A stretch of DNA of 64,000 bases from Zygnema cylindricum (Eukaryota > Streptophyta > Zygnematophyceae > Zygnematales > Zygnemataceae). Each line of letters starts with the position of its first letter. Positions within the stretch are counted from its first letter, which is position 1. The position numbers and the translations under genes are program-made. The notes under the pieces were generated by a model. That model did not search any database. It was not told where the DNA came from and saw nothing but the letters and a program-made list of their open reading frames with translations. The stretch lies in assembly GCA_037447655.1 (NCBI GenBank), contig JBBHKE010000065.1, positions 1 to 64,000 of the forward strand, written 5' to 3'. This document shows, piece by piece, positions 9,838 through 39,985 of the stretch.

Positions 9838-9871
<34 letters not shown>

Positions 9872-11445: not shown

Positions 11446-11580
11446 TTTTGTTTAGTATGAGTTTGGTTCACTTTGAGTATGTGATAGCCCTTTTGTTAAG
11501 TATGAGTTTGGTTCACTTTGAGTATGTGTTAGCCCTTTTGTTTAGTATGAGTTTGGTTCAGTTTGAGTATGTGTTAAAAT
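11446..11580. repeat. 45-bp direct repeat, three copies
   Basis: Units start at 11,446, 11,491 and 11,536. Each contains AGTATGAGTTTGGTTCA and TTTGAGTATGTG. Copies differ by only a few substitutions, so the expansion is fairly recent. Confidence 0.85.
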
Positions 11581-13725: not shown

Positions 13726-13796
13726 CTCCCCCTTTCCCTCTCCCCCTCCCTCGCATCTCCCTCTCCCTCTCCCTTCCCCATCTCTCTCCCACAGCT
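13726..13796 (-). repeat. Purine-rich filler replacing RT coding sequence
   Basis: About 70 bp of G/A-rich sequence on the minus strand lies between RPDLATAV and the RNase H start. It takes the place of the roughly 20 conserved codons normally found there. It resembles the G/A-rich low complexity at 8940-9056 and is not present in other copia elements in the window. Confidence 0.7.
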
Positions 13797-15029
13797 GTAG
13801 CTAAATCAGGGCGTGTGCCAACCATTAAGTACATCAAGCTACCCACTGCCTCTTTGTAAGGGACTTGCCTCATCTGTTCTTTCTCAAACTCTAACTTAGG
13901 ACTCATTTCCTTTGAAAGCTTTTGACTCGGGTCTAAAGGTGTTGATACGGGAATACAACCTTCCATACCAAAACGTTTTAATACTTCTTTTGTATCTTTT
14001 TGTTGATTCATGGAGACTATACAAGCATCATTTTTGATTTCTATACCAAGAAAGTAACTTAATTCTCCAAAATCAGTTGTCTCAAATTTGCTATTCCAGA
14101 ACCGTTTGAAATTTTCAATCTCGGCTGACAGATAACCAAACACACTCATGTTATCGACATAAACTGAGACAATCACTAAGTTTTTGTCTTCCCCAATAGT
14201 GTGCACTACTTTATCTGTGTGACATCTATCAAAGCCATCTTTTCTCGTTTCGGTGTCAAGTTTGATGGTCCAACACCTAGGACTTTGTTTTAGACCGTAT
14301 ATAGATTTGTGTAGTTTACACACCATGTGTTCTTTTCCTAGTTCTATCATGCCCTCTGATTGTTCCATGTACACTTCTTCCTCTAAATCCCTACTTAGGA
14401 ATGCAGTTTAGTTGATGCATCTGTATACCCTCTGCTGCCCCTAAGGCTATTAAACTTCTGAGACTATAAAACTTCACTACTGGTGAAAAAGTCCCAATGT
14501 AGTCAACCCCCTCTTCTTGAGAATACCCTTTAGCAACTAACCTCACTTTATATCTTTCCACTGACCCATCTGACTTCCTCTTAATCTTAAAAACCCACTT
14601 ACACCCAACAATGTTTTTCTCTATTGGGCGTTCTACTAAGGTCTAAGTTTTGTTTTTCATCAATGAGTCATATTCTAATTCTATTGCCTCTTTCCATTTT
14701 TTAGAACTCTCCAATGCTTCATGAAAAGTTTGCGGTTCCCCCTTTGCCGCCATAAAACAATAAGCTAATCCCACATCTCTCGTTTCTCCAATAAGCGGTT
14801 TTGGTTTAGCACGTATCCGATTAGATACTCTTTGAGGGGTTACCTTCAATCTCGATTGTTGAATCGGATTCGGAGAGGTTGTAATTTGCGAAGGTTGTGG
14901 TGCCCGTAACTTCTCCACTGGTAAAGATTGAAAGGTTGATGTTCCACAGGGGAAGAGCGAAAGTCTGAACTGGAATGGGAATTGACGTCGATGACGAAGG
15001 ATCCACTTCATGTTTTCTGCTTGGAGTAC
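13797..15029 (-). pseudogene. Copia A reverse transcriptase region
   Basis: After the deletion junction the frame reads a Pro/Ser-rich linker, then GLAYCFMAAKGEPQTFHEAL and WKEAIELEYDSL. The RT core follows: [15 protein letters not shown], a broken stretch near 14,400, KSIYGLKQSPRCW, VSVYVDNMSVFG, GELSYFLGIEI and GTRPDLATAV. The catalytic YVDD is YVDN and there are stops and a frameshift around 14,380-14,640, so no active enzyme is expected. Homologous to Copia B at 33,834-34,890. Confidence 0.85.
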
Positions 15030-16469: not shown

Positions 16470-17034
16470 TGTTAAGATTTTGCTGAAGTGGCCATAGGAT
16501 CGACCAATTACAAAACAGGTAGCTAAGGAAAAAAAATCTCTATATGAGAAAGCAAGGCTTAATTAGTGAACAAAGAAGGAAAATAAATTAATGACATGAC
16601 AAAATAAGCATTCAGTGCAAAATAGCAGCAGGGAAAAATTGGAGAGAATCATTTGATAAATTGATGACTGATTGATGCATAGCTTTGATACATTTTTATA
16701 TGTGTAGGTGTAGTGTAGATCTATGCAACTCGCGTGTCACGTAAAGAAATAGAATCTAACTTGTGACACATGTAGACAAATCAAAGATCGCCAAGTACAA
16801 AATGTCCGCATGGTATTTCGTCACGTATACTCAAAATTTGCGGCTACTTGACTTCCCGTACACTACAAGTCAAGGACCATGTTTTCAGGAAAACTTGACG
16901 TCTACGTATATGTACCTTCACGTCTATCAACAGTACATATAACTAATAAGACTCCGGTTGATTCATTCACACGTCACTTTACCTATGTTTGACTTTCTGC
17001 TCCTTAGCTGAAAATGGACACAAAAATCTTAACA
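16470..17034 (-). repeat. Copia A 5' LTR
   Basis: 565 bp, plus-strand ends TGTTAAGATT and AATCTTAACA, forming a perfect 10-bp terminal inverted repeat. Pairs with 12,578-13,140. The equivalent LTR of Copia B lies at 30,483-31,033. Confidence 0.9.
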
Positions 17035-17670
17035 AATATATACCCAGCGGATGCTCATAAATGACAAGAGGATAATTGGCCGAATAAACTATAAAAGTGG
17101 TTTAGCTTCGCAGAGATGTCTTTTCTTTTCCACATAATTGTTTTCCTTGAAGATCTTTTGGTTGTTTCTCATCTCCGTTTACTATTATCCACAAATTTTT
17201 TTAAATGAGCTCCCCATTAATACATTTTTTCCATGCTGCGTAATTACAGCCATTGAATAACACGGTTTTGCCGGCCATGCAAAAATTACCTTTTTTACTG
17301 CCAACATTGAAGTTTTCGTCCAAATCACTTTTCAATTTAACTTTGCACAATCGTTTCTTTTTATATTTTGGCCACTTCTTTTGTATCACTACCGTCGATA
17401 TCATCTGGATCTGGATCTGGGTTATCAAGCACCTTAAAGTTTTCCCTTTGGTGAGTAGCCGAGAGTCGCTTATTCGAAAGTGCGAAAAAATCATCAAACA
17501 AAGTTTGTACACGATCTTTTGCCAATGACACTCTCACTTGTTTTTCTATCTCTTTTTCAACATCAAATTGTTTTGCACTAAAACCTTTCGCATTATGTTC
17601 AGTTGTGTTAGATTACTCCGGAGTGGGAGCAAATATACTTGCAGGTGAAAAACCATTTTTCTTTTCTTGC
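17035..17670 (-). mobile_element. Family B element, copy 1, upstream part
   Basis: This is the reverse complement of about 27,180-27,790. In one minus frame it reads AKQFDVEKEIEKQVRVSLAK and VQTLFDDFF, then a Pro/Asp-rich linker; a second frame gives GKTVLFNGCNYAAWKK. This gag-like module is cut by Copia A at 17,034/17,035. No pol domain is present. Confidence 0.7.
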
Positions 17671-18627
17671 CATATGTCATGTCGTAAGACGTCGGCGGGC
17701 ATTATTAAGCCGACAAATACTAATTATGCCTTGATGACGTAACATGTCTGTACGGGAACTTATAGCACGAAATACGGACAAGACAAGGACCGGATTATGT
17801 ACTCACGTACGGTACAGAGTGAACGCTATACGGTGTCAACATGGAACCGGACTGCGGTACGGCATTGGATGCCCAAACTCAACGGCTCCGAACTTGACGG
17901 ATGTCGAAGTCGTGGACCCTCGAAGGTTCATGTATTTATTTTTTGCTTAGCGTAGGGAGGGTTTTTATCCTCGAGATGTAGATGTAAGGCATCGCGAGGC
18001 GGCCACGCAGCGGCCGTCTCTAGGAACTCGCAGCGTTTGAGCATAGAAACATGCACGCTCAGAGACACATAGGAATTAGGGTAGCTGTATAGTTAGCTCA
18101 AAGCATAGGATAAATGCCAAATGGCAAGATTGAACCATTTGCAAATTTACCACGCGAATCCAACATTGTGAAGTTGTCGTTTTGTGACAAGCTTTTTCTC
18201 GGGATTTGTCGAACTTGTGATCCTTAAGGTTTTTCGCATTAATATTAGTCACATGCTAGTTTTGAGTTAGGGTTTCTTTCCGGGCCATATTTTATGCAAG
18301 TAATTGTCTGTGAGCTTCTTATCTTCTCTTGTATCAAGTCCTTACCTAATCTACCAGCGCAAACCAGCTTGCAAGGTTTCCCTCCAGATTGCTGGCTACT
18401 TGCTGTGGTGTATGAATTGTGTTATGTGGATTTAGTGTTTTCTTGTTGTCAGAGCGTTGACCTTGCGGTCCAGCTCTCCTTTAAGTCTAATTTCGGGGAA
18501 CACCGGCTTTCTCGGCTTCTTCGTCTGGTTGGAGGAGGGTTATTTTTTGCTGGTTGGACTGATGTAGCGAAAATCAAAGACTTCAGGGCCTAGTGGCTAC
18601 TGTCGCTAATATTCCCGTGTTAAATTT

Positions 18628-18770
18628 GTCTTTCTTTTTCTTCAATTTGTAGTTTCTTCAATTAGTTATTTCTGCAATTTGTTCTTTCGTTTTCTTCAAT
18701 TTGCAGTTTCTTCAATTTGCTGTTTCTTCAATTTGTTGTTTCTTTAATTAGGTTCTTTTTCAATTTGCTT
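18628..18770. repeat. TTTCTTCAATTTG-type short tandem repeat
   Basis: About eight degenerate units of the type (G)TTTCTTCAATTTGY lie in the Gypsy 1 leader. Such T-rich tracts are non-coding and may be part of the leader or LTR. Confidence 0.65.
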
Positions 18771-19738: not shown

Positions 19739-20607
19739 ATGGATTGGCCAGGGATTCCATTCCTGTCGGATCCTCTCCGTTACAGTCTCCTTATCATACT
19801 GATTGGTCTCAGCTTACGGTTATCCAGATCTGGTATCTCTCCCTCTTCCAAGAGTTGGGGGGAAGATTTTGACATAGACTCCCTTGATATCCGGGATTTA
19901 AACTTACCGCCGTCACTTCTTCCATTAGGCGAGACTATACACACTAATTCGGGTCCCTTTAGCGTGGGCATGGCCTCGTCCATGGATACCGGAGGAGGTA
20001 AAAATCAGTTTTGTTTTCGGGTCTCAAGGACAAAATTATCTTTGTCACACTTTCGCATGCTTTTTGATACTGAGATGCGCGATCTCGCGTTCCGATATCA
20101 AGACCGTTATGATTTGCGTGTGGTTTTTTCTTTGCTGGGACGATACTTGAGCGAATCTGCCCTAACTCTCTACACTCGGAAATGTGCGTCAATTTGTGCT
20201 ATGAGTGAAACGGCACCGCCTATCCCGGCTTGTCAGCTATAACTGGCAGCCCGGAAATTCCTTTTCAAGCTACAGTTCCCGCTCGAGTAGCTATGTTGGT
20301 AAATCCGAATCATTACCCTAATCCTTATCCACGCAACCCATGGCCCAATCCGAGACCCCCAAGGGCTCCAGCCATGGGAATATTACCAACTAACCCTGGT
20401 GTTCATATATGTTTTCGATGTGGTAACAGTGGTCACGACGCACGCAGCTGTCCAGATAAGACAACCACGTGTACTCATTGTAACCAAACAAGTCATTATA
20501 TTCACAAATGTCACATTAAAAACCGCGATTTCAGTTATCAAAATCAAATCAGAAATGGCGCTGTACTTGCACGCTCGGCAAAATTGGTCACTCCACCTAA
20601 AAGGTAG
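19739..20607 (+). pseudogene. Gypsy 1 gag with two CCHC zinc knuckles
   Basis: The frame at 19,739-20,242 has a gag-like body (FDIDSLDIRDLNLPPS, FRYQDRYDLRVVFSLLGRYL). A frameshift near 20,235 moves to the frame 20,230-20,607, with a Pro/Asn-rich stretch and two consecutive knuckles, CFRCGNSGHDARSC and CTHCNQTSHYIHKC, both fitting C-x2-C-x4-H-x4-C. These bind genomic RNA in the nucleocapsid. The start codon is uncertain, and TAA at 20,240-20,242 plus the frameshift disrupt the gene. Confidence 0.8.
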
Positions 20608-21167: not shown

Positions 21168-21522
21168 TTGGATAACAAACTAGGGATATTCACAGTTGAT
21201 GGGTTTGCTCCGGCATTACCTCTCATGGACACCGGCGCTAAACCGATTATCCTTGGGTCAGATTTTTGCAGTCAAAAGAGGTCTTATAGCAGAGAAATTA
21301 CAACCTACAACCACACGTCTTTTGACCTCCGCAAGCACCACAGAAACGGTCCTCGGAATTACAAAGGAACCACTCTGTTTTCAGTTCCAGTGTCAGTCAG
21401 AGACAGATTTCGCAGAAATATATGCCCACGCCTTGGTCACCAAGTGTAGTGATTATGAATGCCTTGTTGGCCAAGACGTGATTTTCTTCGTAGGGGGGGG
21501 GGGGGTTGATATGCACGATTAA
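21168..21522 (+). pseudogene. Gypsy 1 aspartic protease
   Basis: ALPLMDTGAKPIILG carries the D-T-G active-site triad of retroviral-type proteases, preceded by a hydrophobic strand. A frameshift near 21,275 continues as VLGITKEPLCFQFQCQ and YECLVGQDVIF, matching the C-terminal part of the fold. The region ends in an 11-base poly-G run at about 21,492-21,502. Confidence 0.7.
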
Positions 21523-21594: not shown

Positions 21595-22907
21595 ATGCCT
21601 ACTACTGCCCTTTCGGCGCTGACCTTACCAGCCTATGTCGTAGTTGGCATAGGTGCAGACATCCTTGAATCTCTAACAGCGGAGGAAATCTCACCAAATT
21701 CCTCGGGTTTACCAGAATTATTTAGTACACCTGGATATACCATTGATTCTTCAGATTTTGACCGACTATATAAATTTACTATACCAATTTTTTTATCTAG
21801 TATTCGAGATCCACCCTCCATTACGATAGATCCTTCCGGGTTCTTGCCCATTAAATTGACAACGGTCAATTTACAACCTCACCAAAACGGTCTTTGTATC
21901 TTAGACCTTTTTGCTGGAATTGGGATTTCACTTCTCTCTTGCTTTCGGAACGGTCTTCTGATAAAGCATTACTATTTCGTAGATATTGAACCTTTGGCCA
22001 GACGCGCTCAATTGCACCACTGTCAAGTCTTGCACGAACAGTATCCTCATCTCTTACCCCATTCTGCGTTTCACGATATGCATTCGGCTTTGCCACAAGA
22101 TATCCGGCTAATAGGAAATCATCACTTAATGGAATTGGAACCAATTGATCTCCTCTTTGCCGGATGGGAATGTCAAGGTATGTCTAGGGCCGGGAAAGGT
22201 TTAGGTCTCGCAGATCCGCGTACTAAGCTGTTCCTCGAGGTTGTTCATCTGATCCACTTCTTCCAAAAACTGGATCGTCCTTTAAGATACATCTTAGAGA
22301 ACATTGCAGCTTATAATGACCCCCGACCTACCGTCCTCGCAGATTATAAACGCATATAATCATTGATTGGACCACCGTTAATTATTGATGCCGCACGCCA
22401 CGGTTCGCTGCCCCATCGGGTTCGTTCCAAGTGGACTAACCTAGTGGACATGGGTCGTCTACGAGAGGCTAATATCGCCGTCCGACCACCTAACCTTTCC
22501 ATTCAGGATGCACTTCTTCCATTTCATAAGGTCCATACATGTATACAGACACTGACTATCCTCCTACGTTTGGTCTTAACATTTCGGGCTAGCCGCTACG
22601 TGCATTGCCTACACTAGTTGTATATCCACACTCTCACGCATACTCACAGAATGGACCGGGCATGCTTCAGAATACTCATACAGACAGCTTAGAAGAATCT
22701 ACTGTTGCAAAACGAGAACATCTTTTACATTTTATTCCAGGCACTACTGCCGGTCCGGGACTCACCGAGCGGCAGCGCTGCACCTTACTTGGTCGAGTCA
22801 TGGACCCGCAATCATTGTCATTCGTCTTGGGCATGGGGTTTGCAGTTGTTCGATTTGCACAGAACAATCCTTCTCAATCAGCTGGGGGGGGGGCATACAT
22901 CATTTAA
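21595..22907 (+). pseudogene. Gypsy 1 C5-cytosine DNA methyltransferase domain
   Basis: Motif I is DLFAGIG (21,904-21,924) followed by YYFVDIEPLARRAQ, the S-adenosylmethionine-binding strand. Motif IV is DLLFAGWECQGMSRAGKG with the catalytic Cys at 22,171-22,173; the usual Pro before it is Glu. Next come GLADPRTKLFLE and motif VI LENI (22,294-22,305). After a single TAA (22,357-22,359) the same frame continues with IDAARHGSLPHRVRSKWTN, like motif VIII. A frameshift near 22,600 leads to LPTLVVYP, REHLLHFIPGTT and QRCTLLGRVMD, matching motifs IX-X. This is a complete methyltransferase in one copy, broken by one stop and a frameshift. It lies between protease and RT. The motif VIII and C-terminal style recall Dnmt3/DRM-like and algal retroelement methyltransferases; I am not certain of the class. 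Confidence 0.85.
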
Positions 22908-23343
22908 ACATACAGCATCTAAGTTCGCACCTTGTCTCCGGGGTACAACTTTTCAGCTCTCCCTCTTTCCCTCCGTTGCCAAGTCAGACGCAGCTAACAC
23001 TATTAATGATTTTTTGGTCCCTAGTCATATCGGTTGGTCTCTCCCAGCATACACAGCGGCTAGGTCTCAGGTACCGGCACAAGTTTCTCCACACTGGACA
23101 GCTGCATTTCCGTCTAAAAGTTGGCATCACGCAGTAAACTGTTTGCATCAACTTCCAGTCGAGTATGAATTGGGTCACTCCTTGATAGCAGATGAACAGC
23201 TAGTATTTGCACAAGCCATGGAAGCCATGACCATTAACACGCCTGAAAAACTGACATGGAAATTTGGAATTGGACTAACAAAAACTGAAAACGAAATGTT
23301 AGATGGAGTCATTAACTGATATATAGACGCTTTCGCTATCTCT
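22905..23343 (+). pseudogene. Gypsy 1 methyltransferase-RT linker
   Basis: After an indel in the poly-G run at 22,884-22,892 the frame runs to 23,319, with SHIGWSLPAYTAARSQVPAQ, PSKSWHHAVNCLHQLPVEYE and LTWKFGIGLTKTENEML. No known domain was recognised. Just past a TGA (23,317-23,319) it leads into DAFAISMKDLGRH, the first conserved block shared with Gypsy 2. Confidence 0.5.
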
Positions 23344-24165
23344 ATGAAAGACTTAGGTCGGCACACCACTTACAGAATGTCCATCGACTTAGAGGACGAC
23401 AGACCCATATTTAAACCCAAGCATCGTCTATCAGAAACGGAATGTGAATCCGTGGACAAGCGATGCTCAAAATTAGAGGAAGCTGGTATGATTTATAGGT
23501 CCGATTCCACCTTCGCAGCGCCCACCATCATGCCTCGTAAAAAAGACGCGGATGGAAATTTTACAGAACGTCGTTTGTGTGGGGACTATCAATAACTAAA
23601 CTCACGCACGATTCAGGACCGACATCCAATGTCGTTGGCAGAGGACATTTTTTATCATGTCAGAGGAGCTAAATATTTTAGTATCCTAGATCTTCAATAA
23701 GGGTTTAACCAAATCGAGATAGAGGAAAAGGACCGACACAAGACTGCATTTTGGGGTAGTGACGGATGTTGGGAATGGGCGGTTATGCCTTTCGGACTGA
23801 AAAATGCACCGGCGATATTCCAAAAGGTCATGGACTTTGTCTTGGAGGGATGTTAGTTTGCCCGTTGCTATATCGACGATTTGATAATCGCTTCGGCTAC
23901 TAGAGAGGTACATGCAGTCCATATAGGGTGGGTGTTGAAGAAATTAAAAAAAGTAGGACTTAATTGTCATCCTGCCAAATGTACCTTTGGGGCCGAAGGG
24001 GTCCTATACCTTAGGCATTTTATCTCATCTGAGGGAATTACTCCGTTAGAAGTCAAAGTGGAAGCCGTTGGTAAACTACCGGCCCCAACTGATTTGACTA
24101 GCCTGCGTGCATTTCCAGGGTTAGCCAATTATTACCGGCGGTTCGTTCCTACTTTCAACACACTT
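23344..24165 (+). pseudogene. Gypsy 1 reverse transcriptase
   Basis: Reading one frame with several stops gives HRLSETECE, MPRKKDADGNFTERRLCGDY, GFNQIEIEE, WAVMPFGLKNAPAIFQKVMD and CYIDDLIIAS. It ends with the thumb motif LRAFPGLANYYRRFVPTF. The catalytic YIDD is intact. At least four nonsense changes lie between 23,590 and 23,860. This is the standard gypsy RT series, copying genomic RNA into DNA. Confidence 0.9.
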
Positions 24166-24714
24166 GGATCTCCATTAAATGAACTCTTGAAAAAATCATT
24201 CCTGTTCACGTGGGGACCCTCTCACATCGAGGCATTTCAGGGATTAAAAGACGCACTGTCCACCGCTCCTATCCTACGTCCCCCAAATCATAAATTATCG
24301 TTTTTTCTTCAAAATGACTTTGGTAAGCCCGGTATAGCCGCTATCCTTACTCAAGGCGAACTCACAGGTGAGGAATATGTGGTGGCCTACGCCAGTAGAA
24401 GCAACAATCAAACGGAATCAAATTACAGTAGTTATGAGGGAGAATGCCTTGCCGCGGTTTACGGTATTGTACATTTCCGACATTATCTCTATGGCAAGCC
24501 TTTTACTTTTCTTACTGACCATCAACCATTGCATTGGCTCATAACCAATGACAAATTATCCAACAAATTAGCCCGTTGGGCTCTTATTTTACAGGAATAT
24601 GATATGGAAATAATTCATCGACTCGGGCTCCTAAGCTTGGATGCCGACGGGCTCTCCAGGAACCCTTTGCCCAACTCCATTGATAATGGTGTACGACAAG
24701 ATTTTGATGGCTAA
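24166..24714 (+). pseudogene. Gypsy 1 RNase H and connection
   Basis: Same open frame as the end of RT (23,881-24,714). It carries LLKKSFLFTWGPSHIEAFQ, LSTAPILRPPNH, YVVAYASRSNNQTESNYSSY, EGECLAAVYG, FTFLTDHQPLHWL and ADGLSRNPL, all typical of gypsy RNase H. The first acidic residue, D in the F-x-L-x-x-D-A-S block, is changed or displaced (LQNDFGKPGIAA). Ends at a stop at 24,712-24,714. Confidence 0.85.
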
Positions 24715-24844
24715 AACAGTTGCCTCCCTATTGGCAGGAGCGCATTTGATCTACAGTTTTTCAGCACCTACATATCACAAAACTGAACACGATCCATGTC
24801 GGGACAACGCTTTGATCCTATTTCAATCCACTAAGTCTTTTTAA

Positions 24845-25717
24845 GCGGGCAACCTACTAAGGGAAGAGGAGCGCGTGCGGAAGAGAGCCCAAAGTAACTT
24901 GTGGATGGGGGGCTCACTTATCCGTCTTCTCGCAGATGGAAGTCATCGCCATGTTACTCGGCCGACGGAACGACTATCACTTATTAACCAGATTCATAGT
25001 GACCACGGACACTATGGCACCAAACGGACTTTGAGGTTGGTACAGGCTCGGTATTGGTGGTCAGGCATGCAAGCGGATGTGGCGGCGATGTTGCAAGAAT
25101 GCAGCACATGTTACCGGCTACGAATGTCGTTTTCTAACCTGCAAACCACCCTTCAACCCTTGTCAATTCGAGGGCTCTTCTACAGATGGTCGTGTGACCT
25201 GGCAGGTCCCTTTCTAATTTCTCGAAGGGGCAAGCAGTACATTATGATTATTATCGAAAATTTCAGCAAATGGGTGGAAGTGGTGGCTCTCACGCAGAAA
25301 ACTGCCAAACTCACCACCGCGGCTTTCAAGGAAAATGTGCTCCTTCGATATGGAGCCCCTGCATAAGTACTTACAGACCAAGGAAGCAAGTGCCGCAGAA
25401 AATTTCAGGAGATGCTTGACGAGGTGTTAATCGATCATCGACGGAAAATTCGAGATCATCTTCAAGCAGACGGTTTGGCAGAGAGAGCTGTCCAAACCTT
25501 TAAGCGTGCTTTGCGTAAACATTGCTTAGAAAAACAAATTACCGTGTGGGATGAATCATTAGGGTATATTATTATGGGTTATCGAATTTCTGTACAGGCC
25601 AGTTTGGCAAATTTCAGCCCCTATTATGCGTTATTTGGTCCAAAACCACTACTGGGCAGAAATATACAGAAAGTTGCTAGATTACCTCTTATGTCGGATG
25701 CTCTTTTTCTAGAATAA
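24845..25717 (+). pseudogene. Gypsy 1 integrase
   Basis: The zinc-binding H-H-C-C domain reads IHSDHGHYGTKRT, RYWWSGMQADVA and CSTC. The catalytic core follows with WSCDLAGPF (first Asp), VLTDQGSK (second Asp) and DGLAERAVQTFKRAL (Glu). The core is broken by a stop after RYGAPA (25,366) and by stops near 25,690. This enzyme would join the cDNA to target DNA. Gypsy 2 carries a more decayed homologue. Confidence 0.85.
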
Positions 25718-25935
25718 CTGACTAACCGAGCATTGCTCTTTGCTAGGGAAATGCCAATGGCCTTTGAAAATTTGCAGATTGCTCAACACCGCGACTCCTT
25801 ACGATGCTAGATTACCTCTTATGTCAGATGCTCTTTTTCTAGAATAACTGACTAACCGAGCATTGCTCTTTGCTATGGAAATGCCAATGGCCTTTGAAAA
25901 TTTGAAGATTGCTCAACACCGCGACTCCTTATGAT
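25676..25935. repeat. 130-bp tandem duplication in Gypsy 1
   Basis: Bases 25,676-25,805 are repeated almost exactly at 25,806-25,935. The unit covers the end of the integrase core and the following ATGCCAATGGCCTTTGA block. A length of 130 is not a multiple of three, so it shifts the reading frame. Confidence 0.9.
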
Positions 25936-26565
25936 TCGTAACGACCCGCAGTGGCAGTTACCGTCTTCAACAAAAACCCTTCCGGGTGGGAGATTATGTT
26001 TATTTGCCACAGCAAACCTTTAACACCCTCGACACGGATGTTTCACCTCACATTTTGAGGATTACGAAAATCAACTCCAATGGATTATTAAGCTTATAAG
26101 GGGCAGACACGCGAACTTTACGGGAGCATTCAAAGAATTGTGCCCCTTGCTACCTACCCGATCTTTCCAATAGCATGGACCCGTGGCGGATGCCAATTAC
26201 CGACACGGATGTTTCACCTCACATTTTGAGGATTACGAAAATCAACTCCAATAGATTATTAAGCTTATAAGGGGCAGACACGCGAACTTTATGGGAGCAT
26301 TCAAAGAATTGTGCCCCTTGCTACCTAGCCGATCTTTCCAATAGCATGGACCCGTGGCGGATGCCAATTATCGATGCCACCGAGTGTCAGTTATGTCGAC
26401 GGTCTGATGGAGAGACATCAATGCTTCCCTGTGACTATTGCAACCTGGGATTGCATATAGAGTATTTGAATCCAACTTTGCACGCTATCCCAGCTGGATA
26501 GTGGTTCTGCCACGGATGTCGCGACTTGCCTGCTGTCTTTCCCAACTCCCTTGCAGACTAAGGAG
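25936..26565 (+). pseudogene. Gypsy 1 C-terminal GPY/F-like region and PHD finger
   Basis: The frame reads FRVGDYVYLPQQTFNTL, then ILRITKINSNGLLSL, resembling the GPY/F region behind gypsy integrases. It is followed by CAPCYLPDLSNSMDPWRMPI. From 26,386 it reads CQLC, LPCDYCNLGLH and WFCHGC, the cysteine/histidine spacing of a PHD finger (C4-H-C3). The sixth ligand is Tyr (TGT to TAT) and a TAG precedes the Trp. Gypsy 2 keeps that Cys, confirming the pattern. PHD fingers read histone H3 tail methylation, so this may guide integration. Confidence 0.75.
26031..26372. repeat. 171-bp tandem duplication in Gypsy 1
   Basis: Bases 26,031-26,201 and 26,202-26,372 are near identical, starting GACACGGATGTTTCACC. 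The length is 57 codons, so the frame across the GPY/F-like block is preserved, duplicating that block just before the PHD finger. Confidence 0.9.
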
Positions 26566-26900: not shown

Positions 26901-27179
26901 AAGTCAGCAAACGCTACTTCTAACTAAAAGTCAAACCTTGTTGTATCACCAAATTAATAAAACAGGATCGTTGCACACGAAAAAAACCAGACAAAAATAT
27001 ATGGGCAACGGAAGCTTTTAAAAAACCAAACATAAAGAATAGTTACAGCCCACAATATTCGGGCAAATACAAACTTTATTTAGCCGTAGCCATTTTTTTT
27101 ACAAAACTCTCTTTTCTTACTTACTCAAAATTAGCACCTCACTCAGACTTAAGAAAGAGATTAAAGCCGTTTTTACCTA
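26901..27179. other. Spacer between Gypsy 1 and family B copy 2
   Basis: AT-rich sequence without open frames or recognised repeats. The exact boundary of either element within it could not be set. Confidence 0.4.
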
Positions 27180-27328
27180 TGTGACAAGAAAAAAATAATG
27201 GATTTTCAACTGCACTTATGTTTGTTCCCACTCCGTAGCAATCTAGCACACCTAAACAACGTAAAAATGGTTTTAGTGCAAAACAATTTGATTGAGAAAA
27301 AGAGAAAGAAAACAACGTGAGAGCGTAA

Positions 27329-27620
27329 ATGTCACAAGAACTTTGTTTGATGATTTTTTTCGCACTTTTGATTCAACGACTCAAGGATGCTCACCAAAGT
27401 GACAATTTACAGTCGTTTGACAGCTCGGATCAGAATCATGATAGTGAAGGTAGTGATTTGGAAGGAGAGGTCGGAAAAGAAGAAGAGAAAAATTGCGTAA
27501 AAAGAAGTCGAAGAGTGACAACGAGGAAGACTTAGATGTTAGTAGTGACAAAGGTAATTTTGACATGGTTGGCAAAACCGTGTTATTTGATGGCTCTAAT
27601 TACCCAGTATGGAAAAAGCA
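27329..27620 (+). pseudogene. Family B gag-like module 1
   Basis: The frame 27,329-27,535 is rich in Ser/Asp/Glu (DSSDQNHDSEGSDLEGEVGK), then basic. A shift of frame yields GNFDMVGKTVLFDGSNYPVW, the copia-type gag N-terminal motif. Homologous to 17,201-17,530 on the minus strand. Confidence 0.5.
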
Positions 27621-27854
27621 TATTTAGAGAGAGCTCATTCAAAAAAAAAAAGTGGAAAATAGCTAACGGAGATAAGATGGAACCGAAAGATCTTCAAGGA
27701 AAGCAATTGTGTGGAAGAGAAAAGACATCTCTGCGAAGCCAAGACACTTGTAAATCTTTTGGCCAGTTATCTTTTTGTCATTAATGTGCGTCAGTAGGGT
27801 ATTATTTATGTTTTTCGAGCATTAGATCCAACAATTGGTATCAAAACTACTTAT

Positions 27855-30482: not shown

Positions 30483-31033
30483 TGATAAAATTTTGTGTCC
30501 AATTTCTGATAAAGACAAAAGTCAAAGTTGTTACGTGAGAGAGAAGTCAACCGGAGTCATGTTAGGTAAAGGTACAGTTGATAGATGTGATGGTACATAT
30601 ACGTAGACGTCAAGCTTTGGTGAAAACGTAGTTCTTTACTTGTACCGTACATCAAGTCAAGTCGCTGCAAATTTTGAGTGTACGTGACGAAAAAACATGC
30701 GAACATTTTGTACTTGGCGGTCTTTCATTAGTCTACGTGTGTCACAAGTTAGATTCTATTTCTTTACGTGACACGCAAGTTGCATAGGTCTACAAGACAC
30801 CTACACATATAAAAATGTACCAAAGCTATGCATCAATAATCAATCATCAAGTGAATGATTCTCTCCAATTTTTCCCTATTGCTATTTTTGCACTGAGTGT
30901 TTATTTTGTCGCATAATCTATCTTCTTTCTTGTTTAGTAATTAAGCCTTCCTTTCTCATATAGAGATTTGTTTTCCTTAACTTCATGTCTTGTAATTGGT
31001 CGATCGTATGGCCACTTTTTTTGAATGTCAACA
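30483..31033 (+). repeat. Copia B 5' LTR
   Basis: 551 bp, starting TGATAAAATTTTGTGTCC and ending AATGTCAACA. It is homologous over its length to the reverse complement of the Copia A LTRs, with scattered changes including CACCTACACATATAAAAATG (a likely TATA region) in common. Confidence 0.9.
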
Positions 31034-31045
31034 TGGTATCGGAGC
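31034..31045 (+). other. Copia B primer-binding site
   Basis: TGGTATCGGAGC directly follows the LTR. It is complementary to the 3' end of initiator tRNA-Met with one mismatch (plants usually show TGGTATCAGAGC). It is a single copy, unlike Copia A. Confidence 0.85.
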
Positions 31046-31860
31046 TTTAGGTAAAATTACAGACATCCAGAAATTTAATGGTAGTAATTATTTACTATGG
31101 AAATCTAAGATGACCCGTATTCTAAAATATAAAAATTATTGGGGTATTGTAGCAAGTATAGAACTGAAACCTATTGAAGCTGTAGCGGCAGCAGGATATG
31201 ATAGAAGGGAAGAAGAGGCTGCGCCATTAATTTTTCTAGTAGTGGAAGGCAGTCAGCTTTTACAAATAGTTGAGTTGGAAAATCCTAAGGCTATGTGGTA
31301 TAAATTAAAGATTGTACATGAGTGTATTAATCCGTCCAATATTACGCAATTAAAAAATAAATTGCTAGACTTTAGTATGGAGAGTGGAGATACTATGGAA
31401 ACTCATATAAATAGACTGAAAGAGCTTAAATTACAGCAAGCCGCAGTCGGCACAAAACTGAATGATGATGATTTGATCCTTACACTGTTTAGGTCATTAC
31501 CATCACAGTATACTATGATCACGGCTTTGAAAAGTCAACCTACTGTAGACTTTGATGCGGTATGTCACCATTTCATTCAAAATGAAGTTGAAATTAAAAG
31601 AAAGGAGGAAAAAGAGTCAGATGCAGCATTTTATGCCAAAGGCAAATAGTCAGTAAAACGTACTAAGTTAGTAACTGCTTGTGCTATATGTGGAAAACCA
31701 ATCATCAGACTGCTGACTGTAGATTCAAAAAGAAAGAGACTGAAAACTTCAAGAAAAAGATTGTTTGTTACAGTTGTGGAAAACAAGGTCATAAGTCTTC
31801 AGTTTGTCGTAGTAAAGACAAAAACAGACAAAACAAACCATCTTTTGCCATGACCATACA
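31046..31860 (+). pseudogene. Copia B gag with two zinc knuckles
   Basis: An almost uninterrupted frame begins with LGKITDIQKFNGSNYLLWKS and contains ENPKAMWYKL, METHINRLKELKL and LFRSLPSQYTM. After a TAG (31,647-31,649) and a frameshift, two knuckles follow: CYMWKTNHQTADC, whose first half reads CAICGK in the neighbouring frame, and CYSCGKQGHKSSVC, a perfect C-x2-C-x4-H-x4-C. The N-terminus may start in the leader (ATG 31,008), but the exact start is uncertain. Confidence 0.85.
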
Positions 31861-32488
31861 AGATGAGACTAAACTTTTCCTCCCACAGTCTGATGCTCAA
31901 AAAAGCAAATGGATTAAAGACTTTGGAGCGTCTCATCATATGTGTAATGATAAGTCTATATTTTCTTCTCTCACAGCATTACAAAATCCTCAAAGAATTG
32001 TACTGGCAGATGATAAGATTCTAGAGACTAGTCTAATAGGCAAGGTTAAGTTACAATTATACTGTGATACAGGTAGCCATGAAGGCCATCTAAAAGATGT
32101 TTTATACTTACCAGGTTTAATGCATAACCTTTTTAGTGTTATGCATGCTGTGAGGAGTGGACTAAAAGTTGAATTTAAAAAAAAGAAAAATGAAAGGTGT
32201 GAAATCAAAAGTAGGGGAAAGCTAATCGCTCTTGGATATCCAGAAGGGAATCTTTTTGCTCTACGTTTGGATGAGGAAGATGCACAGATGAATTTCAGCA
32301 AAGAAGCACAAACTTTGGAGCTATGGCATCAACGATTTGGTCATCTGGGAGAGCGGAATCTCAAACGCCTCATCAAAAAGAAGATGGTTCGAGGACTAAA
32401 TGACCTCAACGCCCAAGAAAATCTTAAGGTGTGTGAAAGATGTGCTCAAGGTAAGCAAAGAAGGCTTCCTTTTCATAAAGATGGTTAA
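31861..32488 (+). pseudogene. Copia B protease and pre-integrase domain
   Basis: Same open frame as the second knuckle (31,679-32,488). WIKDFGASHHM is the protease active site; the Asp is present but the usual Ser after it is Phe. Next are GHLKDVLYLPGLMHNLFSVM, LELWHQRFGHLGERNLKRL and VCERCAQGKQRRLPFHKDG, the zinc-binding part leading into integrase. Ends at a stop at 32,486-32,488. Confidence 0.85.
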
Positions 32489-33310
32489 CCCTAACATAGA
32501 AGGAAGCTGGAGCTTATTCATTCTGACTTGAGCGGTCCTCACCTCTTAAGTACTGGAGGTTCTAGATTTTTCATCACATTACGGATGAGTGCAATAGAAA
32601 AGTATGGGTGTACTTCATGAAATCTAAGAGTGAAGCTCTTGAGGAGTTCAAAGAGTTTAAAACCATGGTAGAAAACCAGGCAAGAGAACGGATCCAGATT
32701 TTAAGGTCGGATAATGGGGGGGAATATACCTCCAAAGTTTTTAAGGAAAAATGCAAAACTTGGGGGATACAGCAAGAAATATTTTTGCTCTACGTTTGGA
32801 TGAGGAAGATACACAGGTGAATTTCAGCAAAGAAGCACAAACGTTGAAGCTATGGCATCAACGATTTGGTCATCTGGGAGAGCAGAATCTCAAACGCCTC
32901 ATCGAAAAGAAGATGGTTCGAGAACTTGAGGACCTCAACGCCCAAGAAAACCTTAAGGTGTGTGAAAGATGTGCTCAAGGTAAGCAAAGAAGGCTTCCTT
33001 TTCATAAAGATGGTGAACCCAATCATAGAAGGAAGCTAGCTTATTCATTCTGACTTGAGCGGTCCTCACCCCTTAAGTTCTGGAGGTTCTAGATTTTTCA
33101 TCACATTTACGGATGAGTGCACTAGAAAAGTATGGGTGTACTTTATGAAATCTAAGAGTGAAGCTTTTGAGGAGTTCAAAGAGTTTAAAACCATGGTAGA
33201 AAACCAAGCAGGAGAACGGATCCAGATTTTAAGGTCAGATAATGGGGGGGAATATACCTCCAATGCTTTAAAGGAAAACTGCAAAACTTGTGGGATACAA
33301 CAAGAATTTA
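32253..33310. repeat. 529-bp tandem duplication within Copia B integrase
   Basis: Copy 1 is 32,253-32,781 and copy 2 is 32,782-33,310, with offset constant at 529. Each contains the pre-integrase H-x-x-F-G-H-L-G and zinc Cys motifs, plus the first part of the integrase core through RSDNGGEYTS. Copies differ by a few percent. The first copy has lost several bases (a frameshift near 32,576), whereas the second keeps FFITFTDECTRKVWVYF in frame. Confidence 0.9.
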
Positions 33311-34242
33311 CAGTAGCCTATAGTCAGCAGAAAAACGGAGTATCATAAAGGCTTAACCAAACTTTGGTTGAAATTGCACGTTGTTTAGTACATAGTGCAA
33401 AATTGAATCAAAGCCTATGGGCTGAAGCTATCCTTACTGCAGTTTATTTGAAGAATCGTTCTCCTAGTACTTCTTTGAAAGATATTACACCTGAAGCAGC
33501 TTGGTCAGGCTTTAGACTAGATGTTAAACATTTTAGAGTTTTTGGAAGTAAAACCTTTGTTCAGATCCCAACACAGAATAGAAAGAAATTTCACAAGAAG
33601 AGTTGGGCTGGTGTCTTTGTAGGTAATGACATAAATAGAAAAGCTTACAAAATATGTGACCCAGTTACAAGGAAAGTTCATGTTAGTCGAGATGTGACTA
33701 TAGATGAAGGGAAGGAAAGTAGTTCAGATGTGACAGGTAGTCTTGACCCTTGGTCTGAAGAACCAAAGACTGTCACTGTATTTTTTAACAAACAAGAAAA
33801 ATTGGAAAGTGCGTCTCCACCGACACCAGGTACTCCAAGCAGAGAAGATGAAGTAGAGCCTTCGTCATCGTCGCTAATTTCTATTCTAATTTGGACTTCA
33901 GTCATCCCAGGTGGAACATCAACCTTTCAACCTTTACCAGTGGAGAAGTTATCGGCACCACAACCTTTGCAAATTGCAACCTCTTCGAATCCGATTCAAC
34001 AATCAAGATTGAAGGTAGCTCCTCAAAGAGTTTCTAATCGGATACGTGCTAAACCAAAACGGCTCATTGAAAAAACGAGAGATGTGGGTTTAGCTTATTG
34101 CTTTATGGCTGCAGAGGGGGAACCGCAAACCTTTCATGAAGCTTTGGAGAGTTCTAATTCTCAGAAATGGAAAGAGGCAATAGAATTAGAATATGACTCA
34201 CTAATCAAAAGCAAAACTTGGACCTTAGTAAAATGCCAATAG
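33055..34242 (+). pseudogene. Copia B integrase and linker to RT
   Basis: FFITFTDECTRKVWVYF carries the first core Asp, and ILRSDNGGEYTS the second. After a TAA at 33,346-33,348 the frame resumes with NQTLVEIARCLVHSAKLN, SLWAEAILTAVYLKNRSPS and FRVFGSKTFVQI. The Glu helix is partly lost (QQKNGVS where N-G-V-A-E is expected). A Ser/Pro-rich linker with TPGTPSREDEVEPSSSS precedes RT. Copia A lacks exactly the part from CAQG to this TPSR. Confidence 0.85.
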
Positions 34243-34890: not shown

Positions 34891-35756
34891 ATGCCGACTC
34901 TTATACTTTTTCAATGAACGATTGGGTCGTCACGCTACCTATAAGATGTCGATAAATCTCAAAGATCAGCGCCCAATTTTTAAACTAAGACATCGTCTGT
35001 CACAAACCGAATGGGAAATCCGAATGGGAGGTGGTGGACAAACGATGTACCGAGCTCGAGAAAGCTAGCCTAATCTATTGGTCGGATTCCACATTTGCAA
35101 CTCCCACCATCATGCCTCGGAAAAAGGATTCCGATAGTAATTTTACTGAACGTCGAATGTGCATTGAATAATCAGGAACTAAATGCTAGAACAGTTCAAT
35201 ATCGTCATCCCATGCCCCTCGCCGAGGAAATATATGATCACGTAGGCGGGGCAAAGTATTTTTGCATTTTTGACTTTTGTCAAAGATTCAATCAAATTCA
35301 AACAGAGGAAAAAACAGGCATAAAAATGCCTTTTGGGGTAGTGACAGTCGATAAAAATGGATCGTAATGCCATTTAGACTGAAGAATTATTCAACGGTAT
35401 TTCAAAAAGTCATGGACTCATTCCTCGGGGGTTGTAAGTTTAATAGGTGGTACATCGATGACCTCATCATTGCCTCCGCTACTATTGAGGACCACGAGGC
35501 TCACGTCGAATGGGTATTGACCAAATTGAAAAAGGTTGGATTAAAGTGTCATCCCGCTAAATGTTTTTTTGGAGCCGAGGGAGTGCATTACCTCGGCCAT
35601 TTTATCTCGGCTAAAGAGATCACTCCTTTCGAAGTAAAGGTAGAGGCAATGAGTAAACTACCGGGTCCCACAGACCTCACAAGTTCGCGAGCTCTCCTCG
35701 GTCTTGCTAATTATTATCGCAGGTTCGTACCTAATTTTAGTACAATCGCATCCTGT
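34891..35756 (+). pseudogene. Gypsy 2 reverse transcriptase
   Basis: Three frames join to give LGRHATYKMSINL, MPRKKDSDSNFTERRMC, YFCIFDFCQRFNQIQTEE, MPFRLKNYSTVFQKVMDSF and WYIDDLIIASAT with intact YIDD. SRALLGLANYYRRFVPNF ends the domain. Frameshifts lie near 35,160 and 35,360. Confidence 0.85.
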
Positions 35757-36300
35757 TAAAAGACATTCTCAAGAAAGAAGAGGCTTTTACATGAGGCCCC
35801 GACCAAATTTCCGCATTTCAAAAATTAAAAACTGCCCTATCGAGTGCTCCGATTTTTCGCCCCCCAAATCACAAGCTTTCATTTTGTCTCCAAATAGACT
35901 TTGGAAAACCTAGTATCGTTGCCATTTAAACTCAAAATGAGTTGAACAAAGAAAAATACGTCGTTGCCTACGCGAGTAGAAGCAATAATCGAGCTGAATT
36001 GAATTATAGTAGCTATAAAAAAGAATGTCTAGCCGTGGTGTGAGGAGTCGTTCACTTCCGCCATTATCTATACGAAAAGCATTTTGCGCTTTTATCTGAC
36101 CATCGGCCTTTGCATTGGCTGATAACTAACGATAAGTTTTCCAAAAAGCTAGCCCGTTGGGCTTTGATTTTGCAAAAATATGCGGCTGAAATAATCCACC
36201 GACCCGGTTTGCTCAGCTTAAACGCAGACGGAATTTCCCGAAATCCTTTGCCTCGAATGACAGATAACGGAGTTCGACAAGATTTCGACAATGACGATGT
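35757..36300 (+). pseudogene. Gypsy 2 RNase H
   Basis: Blocks in order: ISAFQKLKTALSSAPIF, RPPNHKLSFCLQIDFGKPS, YVVAYASRSNNRAELNYSSY, FALLSDHRPLHWLITNDKF and GLLSLNADGISRNPL. Several stops and a frameshift interrupt it. The order and wording parallel Gypsy 1 24,166-24,714. Confidence 0.8.
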
Positions 36301-37480
36301 TCTCGCCATGTCTGTGGGTTTTTCTTTTACTTACTGTCTGGCCTTTATTACTAATCCTCGTCTCGCTACAGATCCTAACCGCGATGGGCCCCATCATTTT
36401 TTTTGTATCCTCACAAACTTTCTGGTCGGTATTACCGCTGAAGAAAAACGCAGGGTGAAAAAGAGAGCCAAAAACTACTTTTGGTTTGGAGGATCTTTAG
36501 TTCGTTTGATTGCGGACGGAGGCCAGACGCAAGTCCCACGGCCTACTGAGCATTTTTCTCCAATTGAGCAGATTCACACCCAGCTTGGTAACTACGGTAC
36601 CAAGCGAACGTTAAGCCTAATTCAACGTTAAGCCTAATTCCAACACGGTACTGGTGGTCAGAAATGCAATCCGATGTGGCAACTATTCTGCACAAATGTG
36701 GCACCCGCGACCGTCTCCAAACTTATTTTTTTAATCGGCAGACTATACTCCAACCTCTACCCATTAGGGGTTTATTCTATCGATGGTCAGTCGATTTAGC
36801 CGGACCATTTCCTACTTCGCGTAGGGGAAAACATTAAATCATGATTATAATCGAAAATTTCAGTAAGTGGGTGGAGGTCGTAGCTTTGCCTCACAAGACC
36901 GTAAAGTTAACCACAGTAGCCTTTAAAAAACATGTCTTTATAAGATACGGTGCCCCAGCCTAGATCCTTACAGGTCAAGATACACAATTTTGGAGGGAAT
37001 TTTAAGAGATGCTTGATGAGGCTCTCATCAACCATCGTCGTACTAGTCGCAATCACCCACATGCTGATGGTCTGGCTGAACGACGTTCCGGACATTTAAG
37101 CATGCCTTGCTTAAGTATTGCTTAAAAAAACACATTTCGGTTTGGGACGAGTCCCTCGGCTACATTACCATGGGATATCGTATGTCAGTTTAGGCTTGTT
37201 TAGCAAATTTTAGCCCGTATAATGTCTTATTTGGGCGACAATCGTTGCTCGGTGGGAATATTAAGAAAACTGCAAGCTTTACGTTTATTTTTATGTTTGA
37301 CACAATTTTTTTGGAAGAACTTACTCGTCGTGGTTTGCTTTCACCCGTGAAATGCCCATGGCTTTTGCTTATCTGCAGATTGCCCAGCATCATGACACCC
37401 TTCGGTTTCCCACCACTCGAAGCGGCAGTTACAAGCCGCAACAAAAGCCTTATCGGGTAAGAGACTATGTGTATCTTTGT
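36301..37480 (+). pseudogene. Gypsy 2 integrase
   Basis: The zinc domain reads IEQIHTQLGNYGTKRTLSLI and then, in broken frames, a C-x-x-C region. The core is scattered across frames (RWSVDLAGPFPTSRRG, then LMVWLN, where D-G-L-A-E is expected). A short 18-base duplication (CGTTAAGCCTAATTC) lies near 36,610-36,640. Too decayed to be functional. Confidence 0.7.
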
Positions 37481-37850
37481 AGGCAATCCTTCGACACTTT
37501 GAATACAACGAGGAGGATCCGAATGGAATGTAGGGATTACAAAGAGCGGACACGCGAACGTTCCGGGAGCACTCTAAGAATTGTGCTCAATGTTATTTAC
37601 CGGATTTGTCGCAGGATATAGATCCCATGAGGATGCAAATTATAGAGGCGACAGCATGTACTTTTTGTCATCGATCAAACGTGGAAACTACCATGTTACT
37701 TTGGGACCACTTCAATCCGGATTTTTCACATAGAGTGTTTGGTGCCACCATTGTTTGAAGTTCCGGATGGTCACTGGTTTTGCCACGGATGCCACGAGCT
37801 TCCGATCGTGTTGGCCTGCTCCTCCGCAAGCTTAGGAGCTAGGGGTCGGA
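37481..37850 (+). pseudogene. Gypsy 2 C-terminal PHD finger
   Basis: After YRVRDYVYLCRQSFDTLN, the sequence from about 37,650 reads EATACTFCHRSNVETTMLL and WDHFNPDF in one frame. It then reads FHIECLVPPLFEVPDGHWFC and HGC in another. Combined, this is C-x2-C, (degraded) C-D-x-C, H-x2-C, P-P-L-x-x-x-P-x-G-x-W-x-C-x2-C, the PHD signature. The third and fourth ligands are mutated here but intact in Gypsy 1, and the H-x2-C Cys is intact here but mutated there. Confidence 0.75.
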
Positions 37851-38500
37851 ATAAATGGATCTCTCTCGGATGTGTTCACTCATTTTTCTTCTTTGCCTTG
37901 AATTATTCTTTCTCACTCTAAATCAAGATCTTGTCGCATTCTTTTGCTTTGTTTTCTTTATCATTTTTGCTGCTCAGCTTATTGTGTTGCATTTACATCT
38001 ATGCACGACAGCTCTCATGCCACATAGTATCGGCACATAATTATTGGATGGGGTATCACAAATTATAAACTGTCGCCACGCTAATTTTGTTTGGTATTTA
38101 AATGTGGTAGCACGCAGGTACGACTGCGTACGTTCGAAGTGTAACCGCCGCAAATTACGTGGAGGTACAGAATTGAACAGGCATGAGAGCGACGGCGACT
38201 GGACTTATGATTATCTATCGCATATTTTTGGTGACGCGACGTATGATTTCGAAAACATTGGTAACACAACGTACAATTTCAAACATTGTTGACGCGACGT
38301 ATGATTTCAAAATGTTGGCGACGCACACGGATTGGTTGTAGTTTAAGTCGTGAACCACTGGAGGTTCATGCATTTCCATATAGATTAGGAAGGGATTTAA
38401 TCCGTGATCGTGAATTTTGTAAAGTAGGCATACAGTCCTGGTCTCCAATTGGCCAAGACCTAAAGTAGGCGCAAATCATACATATTATATTCTCACGCTT
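37851..38500 (+). repeat. Presumed Gypsy 2 3' LTR region
   Basis: The region follows a polypurine-like AGGAGCTAGGGG. It starts GAATAAATGGATCTCTCTCG and CGGATGTGTTCACTCATTTT, which recurs twice at about 39,215 and 39,272 with the next 200 bp. A patch at 38,345-38,375 resembles 17,908-17,940 in the Gypsy 1 leader. LTR ends were not defined. Confidence 0.4.
38230..38326. repeat. About 29-bp degenerate tandem repeat, 3+ copies
   Basis: Units GGTGACGCGACGTATGATTT, GGTAACACAACGTACAATTT and GTTGACGCGACGTATGATTT, each followed by C(G)AAAACATT, lie in the Gypsy 2 downstream region. Confidence 0.75.
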
Positions 38501-38578
38501 TTGGTTAATTGAAGTTAATCGAGGTTAGTACTTAGTCAGAATAGTTAGTTCTGTACACTCATTATTTCAGAGTACAAG

Positions 38579-38629
38579 AATTAGTTTTAGGAGATTTTCG
38601 CAGGAATTAGTTTTAGGAGATTTTCGCAA
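38579..38629. repeat. 26-bp direct duplication
   Basis: GAATTAGTTTTAGGAGATTT followed by TCGCA occurs twice in immediate succession. Confidence 0.85.
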
Positions 38630-38830
38630 TTTTTTTTGTTTTGTCTTTTTTTTTTAAGTTATGTACAAATTATCTAAGCTTTCCGCGCCTAGTTTTTTCC
38701 TCACTATCATAGTTTCTTGTAAAATTCCTACAATTTAATTCACTTGGCTTAAGCCAAAGTTCGCAAGGTTTCTCTTCATCAAACTCTGGTGTGGATTCGG
38801 CAACAACAGACTTTCTCATGCTGTGTCTAA

Positions 38831-39014
38831 ACCCTTGTGAATGTATTATGTGCATTTGGGTTGTCTGAACCTTTGTGAATGTATTCTGTGCATTAAGGTT
38901 TGACATGTTGTTTTGCATCTCTACCCTTGTGAATGTATTATGTGCATTTGGGTTGTCTGAACCTTTGTGAATGTATTCTGTGCATTAAGGTTTGACATGT
39001 TGTTTTGCATCTCT
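38831..39014. repeat. 92-bp tandem duplication
   Basis: Units 38,831-38,922 and 38,923-39,014 are practically identical. Each holds two related phrases, TTGTGAATGTATTATGTGC and TTGTGAATGTATTCTGTGC, so the unit itself arose from a shorter repeat. Confidence 0.9.
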
Positions 39015-39183: not shown

Positions 39184-39297
39184 TCCATCGGCATAGTGAA
39201 TAAATACATCTCCCTCGGATGTGTTCACTCATTTTTTTTATCCATCGGCATAGTGAATAAATACATCTCCCTCGGATGTGTTCACTCATTTTTTTTC
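39184..39297. repeat. 57-bp tandem duplication
   Basis: Units 39,184-39,240 and 39,241-39,297 are almost identical (TCCATCGGCATAGTGAATAA and on). Sequence after it repeats the 37,855-38,010 block, so this may be a second, truncated Gypsy 2 LTR-like copy. Confidence 0.85.
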
Positions 39298-39985
39298 TTT
39301 GCCTTGTCTCATTTTTTCTCACTCTGTATCATATTCTTCTCGCATTCTTTTGCGTTGTTTCCTTTATCATTTTGCTGCTCAGCTGATACTGTTGAATACA
39401 TTCTTCGCATTGAGAACTATGCGCGACATCTATAACAAAAATTGCACTTATTTTTCAAACATAAAAAAATTAATGATAACATCATAAGAGCCTAATTTCA
39501 AGTTGGTGTTTTGACTAGAGGGCGATAATAGTATATAAAATCAAAATTTTGGTTTAATAATCCACACATACACCATAAAGTGAAATAGTTGTGTTAGTAA
39601 TTATAACCTTATCCAAACTAATCTATAGTACGTGTTGAATCTTTTTTATAAATGACCCATTTGTTATAAATAAAATGGATTCGCCGTTATCTAACAATTT
39701 TAACTTCATATTGATATGATAACGCACTATCGCAAACCAAATAAAATAAAAAACAATCGATTATCAAATTCAATTGAAGGTTAAGCTTCACCATTGATGC
39801 AGAAGAAGCCGATACACACATTGGGTGTTATGCGGCAATAAAGATGAACATATTCGAGGCATACATTTGACGGATTCAGCCAAACTGGGGTATATGGACT
39901 GAAAGAAATATAAGGTGCGCACAACATTTTTGGCGCGCTGCATAATCGAACGGACGCCGATTGAGGAATTTATTATTGGACGGTC
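39298..39985. other. LTR-like remnant then AT-rich spacer, no gene seen
   Basis: Bases to about 39,440 repeat the sequence at 37,880-38,010 (CTTTGCCTTG, CGCATTCTTTTGC, TTTGCTGCTCAGC). The rest is AT-rich without recognised features, up to the first copia gag-like peptides near 39,990. Confidence 0.4.

Follow-up and report, generated by a model that had tools for sequence, protein, structure and literature searches.

DNA methylation usually silences retrotransposons, and a retrotransposon that encodes its own DNA methyltransferase (MTase) is therefore a puzzle. This question is raised by a locus in a window of 64,000 nucleotides, the whole stretch analysed here, from contig JBBHKE010000065.1 of Zygnema cylindricum; all coordinates are those of this window. 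At about 17.9-27 kb, its + strand carries a Ty3/gypsy-type element, called copy 1. It is very probably a dead copy of an element whose Pol polyprotein held a DNMT3-like MTase between the protease and the reverse transcriptase (RT) and a PHD finger at the C-terminal end of the integrase. When this identification is combined with a division of labour, in which the PHD finger would tether the integrase and the MTase would methylate the new copy, the probability of the whole statement is about 0.5.

Motifs and profiles placed the domains of copy 1 in the order gag zinc knuckles, protease motif, C5 MTase, RT, RNase H, integrase, and C-terminal PHD finger (Table 1). The MTase, RT-RNase H, integrase, and PHD finger were each placed independently by tblastn with related proteins, and the RT-RNase H-integrase order of a gypsy-type Pol was recovered by profiles and tblastn alike. 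The MTase matched DNA_methylase (PF00145) at E = 7e-11 with 42.5 bits against a cut-off of 22. Its motifs DLFAGIG, LENI, and HRVRSKWTN start at 21904, 22294, and 22414, GWECQG occupies 22162-22179, and the domain extends beyond one stop and one frameshift as far as 22832. Integrase_H2C2 (PF17921) was matched at 3.1e-16 and PHD (PF00628) at 4.5e-8 (33.4 bits, cut-off 24, with the in-frame stop written as X). The scores of RVT_1 (8.2e-7, 29.4 bits) and rve (PF00665; 1.5e-5, 25.6 bits) were under the respective cut-offs of 29.6 and 32.6, the former narrowly. The integrase motifs CDLAGP, LTDQG, and AERAVQTFKR were found at 25193, 25370, and 25478.

These results agree with the sequence-only reading, which had described a Ty3/gypsy-type polyprotein with an MTase and a C-terminal PHD finger and had listed the motifs in this order and in one orientation; the MTase can now be specified as DNMT3-like. 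The span of 21595..26565 proposed in that reading holds the core domains, whereas the MDTGA motif lies about 370 bases before its start and the element is longer. The protease was called from this motif, which is present. Since the open reading frame (ORF) concerned gave no Pfam match, the assignment is by motif alone.

Table 1. Features of the two element copies in the window, with the evidence for each
Feature	Position	Strand	Evidence
5' terminal stretch A1, copy 1	17899..18565	+	alignment to the stretch between the copy 2 direct repeats
Two gag zinc knuckles, copy 1	20410..20511	+	motifs; zf-CCHC E = 0.0036, under cut-off
Protease motif MDTGA, copy 1	21225..21239	+	motif alone
DNMT3-like C5 cytosine MTase, copy 1	21826..22832	+	PF00145; tblastn of P0001, P0002, P0004, P0019-P0021
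RT, broken, copy 1	23356..24291	+	tblastn of P0019; YIDD at 23869; RVT_1
RNase H, copy 1	24292..24600	+	RT_RNaseH PF17917, 1e-30
Integrase, zinc-binding and catalytic core, copy 1	24860..25804	+	PF17921, PF00665; tblastn of P0020, P0021
Integrase C-terminal tail, copy 1	25848..26374	+	tblastn of P0021 (25848-26177) and P0020 (25887-26558); repeats
PHD finger, copy 1	26385..26519	+	PF00628; CQLC at 26385, CDYC at 26430, WFCHGC at 26502-26519
Copy 2: RT, RNase H, integrase, PHD finger	34911..37845	+	blastn to copy 1; tblastn; RT_RNaseH 5.3e-11
PHD finger, copy 2, split by a frameshift	37646..37792	+	half finger; PF00628 9.2e-4, 19.6 bits, under cut-off 24
Direct repeat B1, after the copy 2 coding end	37849..38042	+	156 of 186 aligned bases match 39255-39453
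Stretch A2, between B1 and B2	38334..39003	+	related to the copy 1 5' flank
Direct repeat B2	39255..39453	+	pairs with B1

Copy 1 is dead, its reading frames being interrupted by stops and frameshifts. Two tandem duplications, one of 130 and one of 171 bases, lie in the integrase tail (25675-25934 and 26030-26371), and the PHD finger contains an in-frame stop. The Cys4-His-Cys3 zinc ligands of the finger are complete in the related proteins P0020 and P0021, and one of these Cys residues is replaced by Tyr in copy 1.

These related proteins came from a polyprotein-length protein search, in which three proteins, P0019, P0020, and P0021, were obtained at E up to 10 among 2668 candidates. P0020 and P0021 have unbroken frames. 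P0019, an unnamed product of Closterium sp. NIES-54, contains an MTase, RT, and the start of RNase H; the model, 760 residues long, stops within RNase H, so that any integrase/PHD region would lie beyond it. P0020 contains an MTase, integrase, and PHD finger, with rve, H2C2, PHD, and DNA_methylase all over cut-off, and nothing was seen upstream of its MTase. In P0021, the end of RT is followed by RNase H, MTase, integrase, and PHD finger. Its RNase H, H2C2, rve, and PHD profiles were over cut-off, its MTase was under (16.5 versus 22 bits) and aligned to the window MTase at 3e-26, and its best solved-structure match was Ty3 Gag-Pol (9.8e-44). Because the pairing of MTase and PHD finger recurs in unbroken relatives, it looks like a genuine type of element, not a chance event; the original observation is right and is broader than first noted. 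The position of the MTase varies, as it comes ahead of RT in copy 1 and P0019, separates RNase H from integrase in P0021, and comes ahead of integrase in P0020, whereas the PHD finger directly follows the integrase in all four cases in which that end was seen (copy 1, copy 2, P0020, P0021). We read this arrangement as an apparently stable integrase-PHD unit with a mobile MTase, which could still go back to a single acquisition.

Searches with the MTase gave one relative among 1929 candidates for the ORF query and 18 among 7994 scored for a two-sequence alignment. No relative was confirmed in viral_contigs when these were scanned with P0001, P0004, the MTase and RT ORF of the window, and an integrase-tail-PHD alignment; a scan with P0002 gave 21 IMG/VR loci, taken for phage MTases. 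In the prokaryote contigs scanned with P0021, no relative was confirmed. Two regions of the relatives were observed in passing. Residues ~300-480 of P0021, between RNase H and MTase, form a Cys-rich stretch with two halves that look similar by eye, and the window copy, so far as it was mapped, has no counterpart there. The ~300 residues after the PHD finger of P0020 (905-1231) had no Pfam match at E up to 0.01.

The window contains a second copy, whose DNA identity to copy 1 by blastn is 68.2% over 1383, 68.1% over 746, and 64.7% over 309 columns. In copy 2, the PHD finger comes after the integrase as in copy 1, according to tblastn; its CDxC pair is gone and the later zinc ligands are retained. 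The mismatches between the two copies at codon positions 1/2/3 were 51/45/170 in RT-RNase H, 42/20/112 and 23/14/56 in two stretches of the integrase, and 17/19/39 in the PHD finger (p = 0.0034). The bias toward third positions indicates that the PHD finger evolved as a protein, and RT-RNase H, integrase, and PHD finger were under protein-level constraint between the two copies. The region of copy 2 before RT is missing and a copia element abuts there (RVT_2 in 34197-34721 and 34730-35068), so that copy 2 is uninformative on the MTase. The sequence-only reading had looked to other copies for loss of the MTase or the PHD finger: P0020 and P0021 keep both, and copy 2, in which nothing is left ahead of RT, keeps the finger.

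The MTase is DNMT3-like by profile. The window MTase ORF alone gave DNMT3B as its first, weak match (8e-4). When a profile was made from eight related MTases (window, P0001-P0004, P0019-P0021), the best matches among solved structures were DNMT3A/B (1e-19 to 4e-16; DNMT3A 9.5e-20), followed by DRM2 (1.2e-9), HhaI (from 3.6e-8), and DNMT2 (1.7e-5); none of the 59 sequences listed (E up to 1) was a DNMT1. A DRM-type, bacterial, or DNMT2-type MTase was rejected on these lower profile scores, P0004 taken alone excepted. Unlike in DRM, the MTase motifs are in unrearranged order. The structure model of the P0021 MTase was weak (predicted local distance difference test, pLDDT, 61.8), and the best 50 of its 63 Foldseek matches at E up to 0.001 were all DNMT3 structures, with TM-scores of 0.22-0.49. 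In a tree of 23 rows (the eight related MTases, DNMT3A, and 14 further search hits), the eight formed one clade with 100/99 support. DNMT3A shared a long branch with P0005 and P0006 and adjoined the retroelement clade at just 78/80, so that the tree alone is no proof of a DNMT3 origin. Within the clade, the pre-integrase MTases of P0020 and P0021 were grouped at 99/97, and the pre-RT MTases of the window and P0019 in only 1% of 200 bootstrap trees. Membership of a retroelement is shown for four of the eight (window, P0019-P0021), because P0001-P0004 are MTase pieces without seen context. The catalytic Cys is retained in all eight. In motif IV, the window, P0001, P0004, and P0019 have WECQG, with Glu in place of Pro beside this Cys, and the other four (P0002, P0003, P0020, P0021) have Pro-Cys. 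The window MTase also keeps the Glu-Asn of motif VI and an HRxRxxWTN-like motif.

The solved matches of the PHD finger were PHF12, BAZ2A, BAZ2B, WSTF, MLL3, ATXR5, and PHF21A for copy 1 (best 60 of 73), CHD4, PHF12, and PHF21A for P0020 (best 60 of 74), and KDM5A/B, KDM5D, ATXR5, AIRE, and UHRF1 for the whole protein P0021 (best 60 of 86). Many of these proteins bind unmodified histone H3, not methyl-lysine. In PHD fingers that read trimethylated lysine 4 of histone H3 (H3K4me3), the residue two before the His is the cage Trp; it is Gly in copy 1, Ala in P0020, and Gly in P0021, and thus Trp in none of the three fingers. The structure matches and the missing cage Trp support, but do not show, that the finger may read H3K4me0. 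A structure model of the integrase tail and PHD finger was weak (pLDDT 51.1).

How the two domains might work in one element can be proposed as follows. In chromoviruses a chromodomain lies at the integrase C-terminus, and the PHD finger may occupy its place. There it would anchor the integrase on nucleosomes, and nucleosomes that lack H3K4 methylation are the likeliest choice. The MTase, which is produced together with RT in one Pol, would methylate the cDNA or the fresh insertion, and the new copy would thereby arrive resembling methylated host DNA. This pairing of reader and writer would parallel DNMT3A/B, in which an ADD domain before the MTase reads unmethylated H3K4. When the PHD finger of ING2 or the chromodomain of HP1-alpha was placed on the integrase-binding domain of LEDGF, HIV-1 integration was redirected (PMC8149907), and the ING2 fusion indicates that in principle an integrase can be directed by an attached finger. 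We hold the division of labour between tethering and methylation tentatively, at a little short of even odds. A wider proposal is doubtful: a Ty3/gypsy lineage, perhaps streptophyte-algal, would carry its own reader and writer, with the integrase-PHD unit picking H3K4-unmethylated nucleosomes and the DNMT3 methylating the incoming copy. In this way the element would itself determine the chromatin state at its insertion. In its history, the MTase would have moved within Pol while the PHD finger stayed on the integrase.

Several observations weigh against the identification or the proposed roles. A pair of long terminal repeats was looked for around copy 1 and none was found, and within the window the MTase is present in copy 1 only. 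For P0004 alone, HaeIII and HhaI (1e-6) scored slightly ahead of DNMT3A (1.4e-5). The match lists of the PHD fingers also hold double-PHD proteins such as DPF3 and KAT6A, which are acyl-lysine-type readers, so that the finger could be of either ligand type. The Glu in place of the motif IV Pro makes the activity of the window MTase uncertain. KnitGypsy-Dnmt3, which carries a DNMT3 in the Gypsy Pol of the charophyte Klebsormidium nitens, was tried in yeast and no de novo methylation by its MTase was seen, a result that the authors call inconclusive (PMC5890265). The last two points would fit an MTase of the WECQG branch that no longer methylates DNA and instead acts on RNA or has a structural part, with only the PHD finger mattering. 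This is unlikely, since the window copy retains the catalytic Cys and the other conserved motifs, and other members of the clade have Pro-Cys.

It is similarly improbable that the PHD finger serves the MTase rather than the integrase. If Pol remained uncleaved or were cleaved only in part, the finger could gate methylation by chromatin state, like the ADD domain of DNMT3A/B, and methylation would spread to host chromatin. The presence of both domains in one polyprotein in P0020 and P0021 and the DNMT3-like nature of the MTase are in line with this, but the fixed order of integrase and PHD finger, together with the shifting place of the MTase, ties the finger to the integrase. A gypsy element lying beside, or containing, unrelated MTase and PHD insertions might be considered because copy 1 is decayed and stands among copia elements. 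Such a chance assembly is hardly credible: it is contradicted by the matching domain sets of P0019, P0020, and P0021, the PHD finger of copy 2, the codon-position bias in the finger, and the single MTase clade. The tethering integrase-PHD unit with a methylating MTase thus remains our preferred explanation.

The ends of the element were examined for repeats. The likeness of B1 and B2, a 194-base repeat recurring 1.4 kb downstream, was reached in 0 of 300 shuffles. Local alignment of 17880-18640 with 38320-39260 scored 122, against a maximum of 97 in 200 dinucleotide shuffles (0/200 as high). An earlier, coarser comparison of A1 and A2, which took in more sequence, fell short of significance (score 57; shuffle maximum 61), as did the far end of the A stretch taken alone (31/200 shuffles as high). 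No B repeat was found before A1 (208/300 and 68/300 shuffles as high), and no A2 downstream of copy 1 (191/300). An A-coding-B-A-B layout is suggested only when copies 1 and 2 are combined and is complete in neither; these ends resemble the DIRS-like A-coding-B-A-B repeats of KnitGypsy-Dnmt3, as given in the legend of Fig. 4 of PMC5890265.

Copy 1 is also flanked on both sides by an inverted 645-base repeat, 75% identical (17034-17675 and 27179-27807), which possibly reflects chance nesting. Elsewhere in the window, a Pfam scan of ten ORFs, with matches to RVT_2, Retrotran_gag_2, and gag_pre-integrs, marks pieces of several copia-type elements at 13652-14407 (-), 30996-35068 (+; 30996-31649 judged by eye), 51304-51864 (+), 57538-58365 (-), and 62662-63792 (-). 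A tandem array of 16 copies of a 25-base unit, with 93% matches, occupies 47055-47458. Pfam scans for host genes, which covered 1-6002 (+) and 6001-12360 (-), gave no match there, and Rfam and ARAGORN gave no matches in the window.

The histone-reader-type finger on the integrase suggests a testable answer to the initial puzzle: the element may select where it inserts according to chromatin state and mark itself accordingly. Since the MTase and PHD finger are both small and are unbroken in relatives, binding and methylation can be assayed directly.

Among known systems, chromoviruses resemble the present element in having a chromatin-reading-type domain at the integrase C-terminus and differ in that it is a chromodomain, for which P0020 and P0021 gave no match at E up to 0.01. 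Chromodomains reportedly direct integration to heterochromatin, going by the title of Gao et al. 2008. DNMT3A/B are the closest solved MTases by profile and likewise join reader and writer in one protein (ADD domain, PMC12344493); they are host enzymes, with Pro-Cys in motif IV versus Glu-Cys in the window. Ginger1 elements share a gypsy-type integrase with extra C-terminal domains, including a PHD finger in Ginger1-9, but are DNA transposons in which the finger occurs alongside Ulp1, and no RT or MTase is described in the available part of PMC2836005. PHD domains also occur in CR1 long interspersed elements, as cited in PMC5408684. As far as the available text goes, the combination of PHD finger and MTase was not found in the literature searched on PHD fingers in LTR or Ty3/gypsy elements (PMC2836005, PMC5408684, PMC9406493, PMC8149907), nor was a PHD finger with the MTase seen in that on retrotransposon MTases (including PMC6338049 and PMC11244446), in line with the remark in the sequence-only reading that a C-terminal PHD finger is not a standard description. 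The precedent named there, a retrotransposon MTase in charophytes, is correct. P0019 is like the window element in having its MTase before RT, in WECQG, and in belonging to the same clade, and the two MTases are 33% identical. KnitGypsy-Dnmt3, compared here by description and not by sequence, shares a Gypsy Pol with an unrearranged DNMT3 MTase, and the available main text does not mention a PHD finger (PMC5890265). A Gypsy element with a DNMT3 is thus already known, and what is apparently new is the C-terminal PHD finger, the MTase at two places in Pol, and the Glu for Pro in motif IV of half of the eight MTases.

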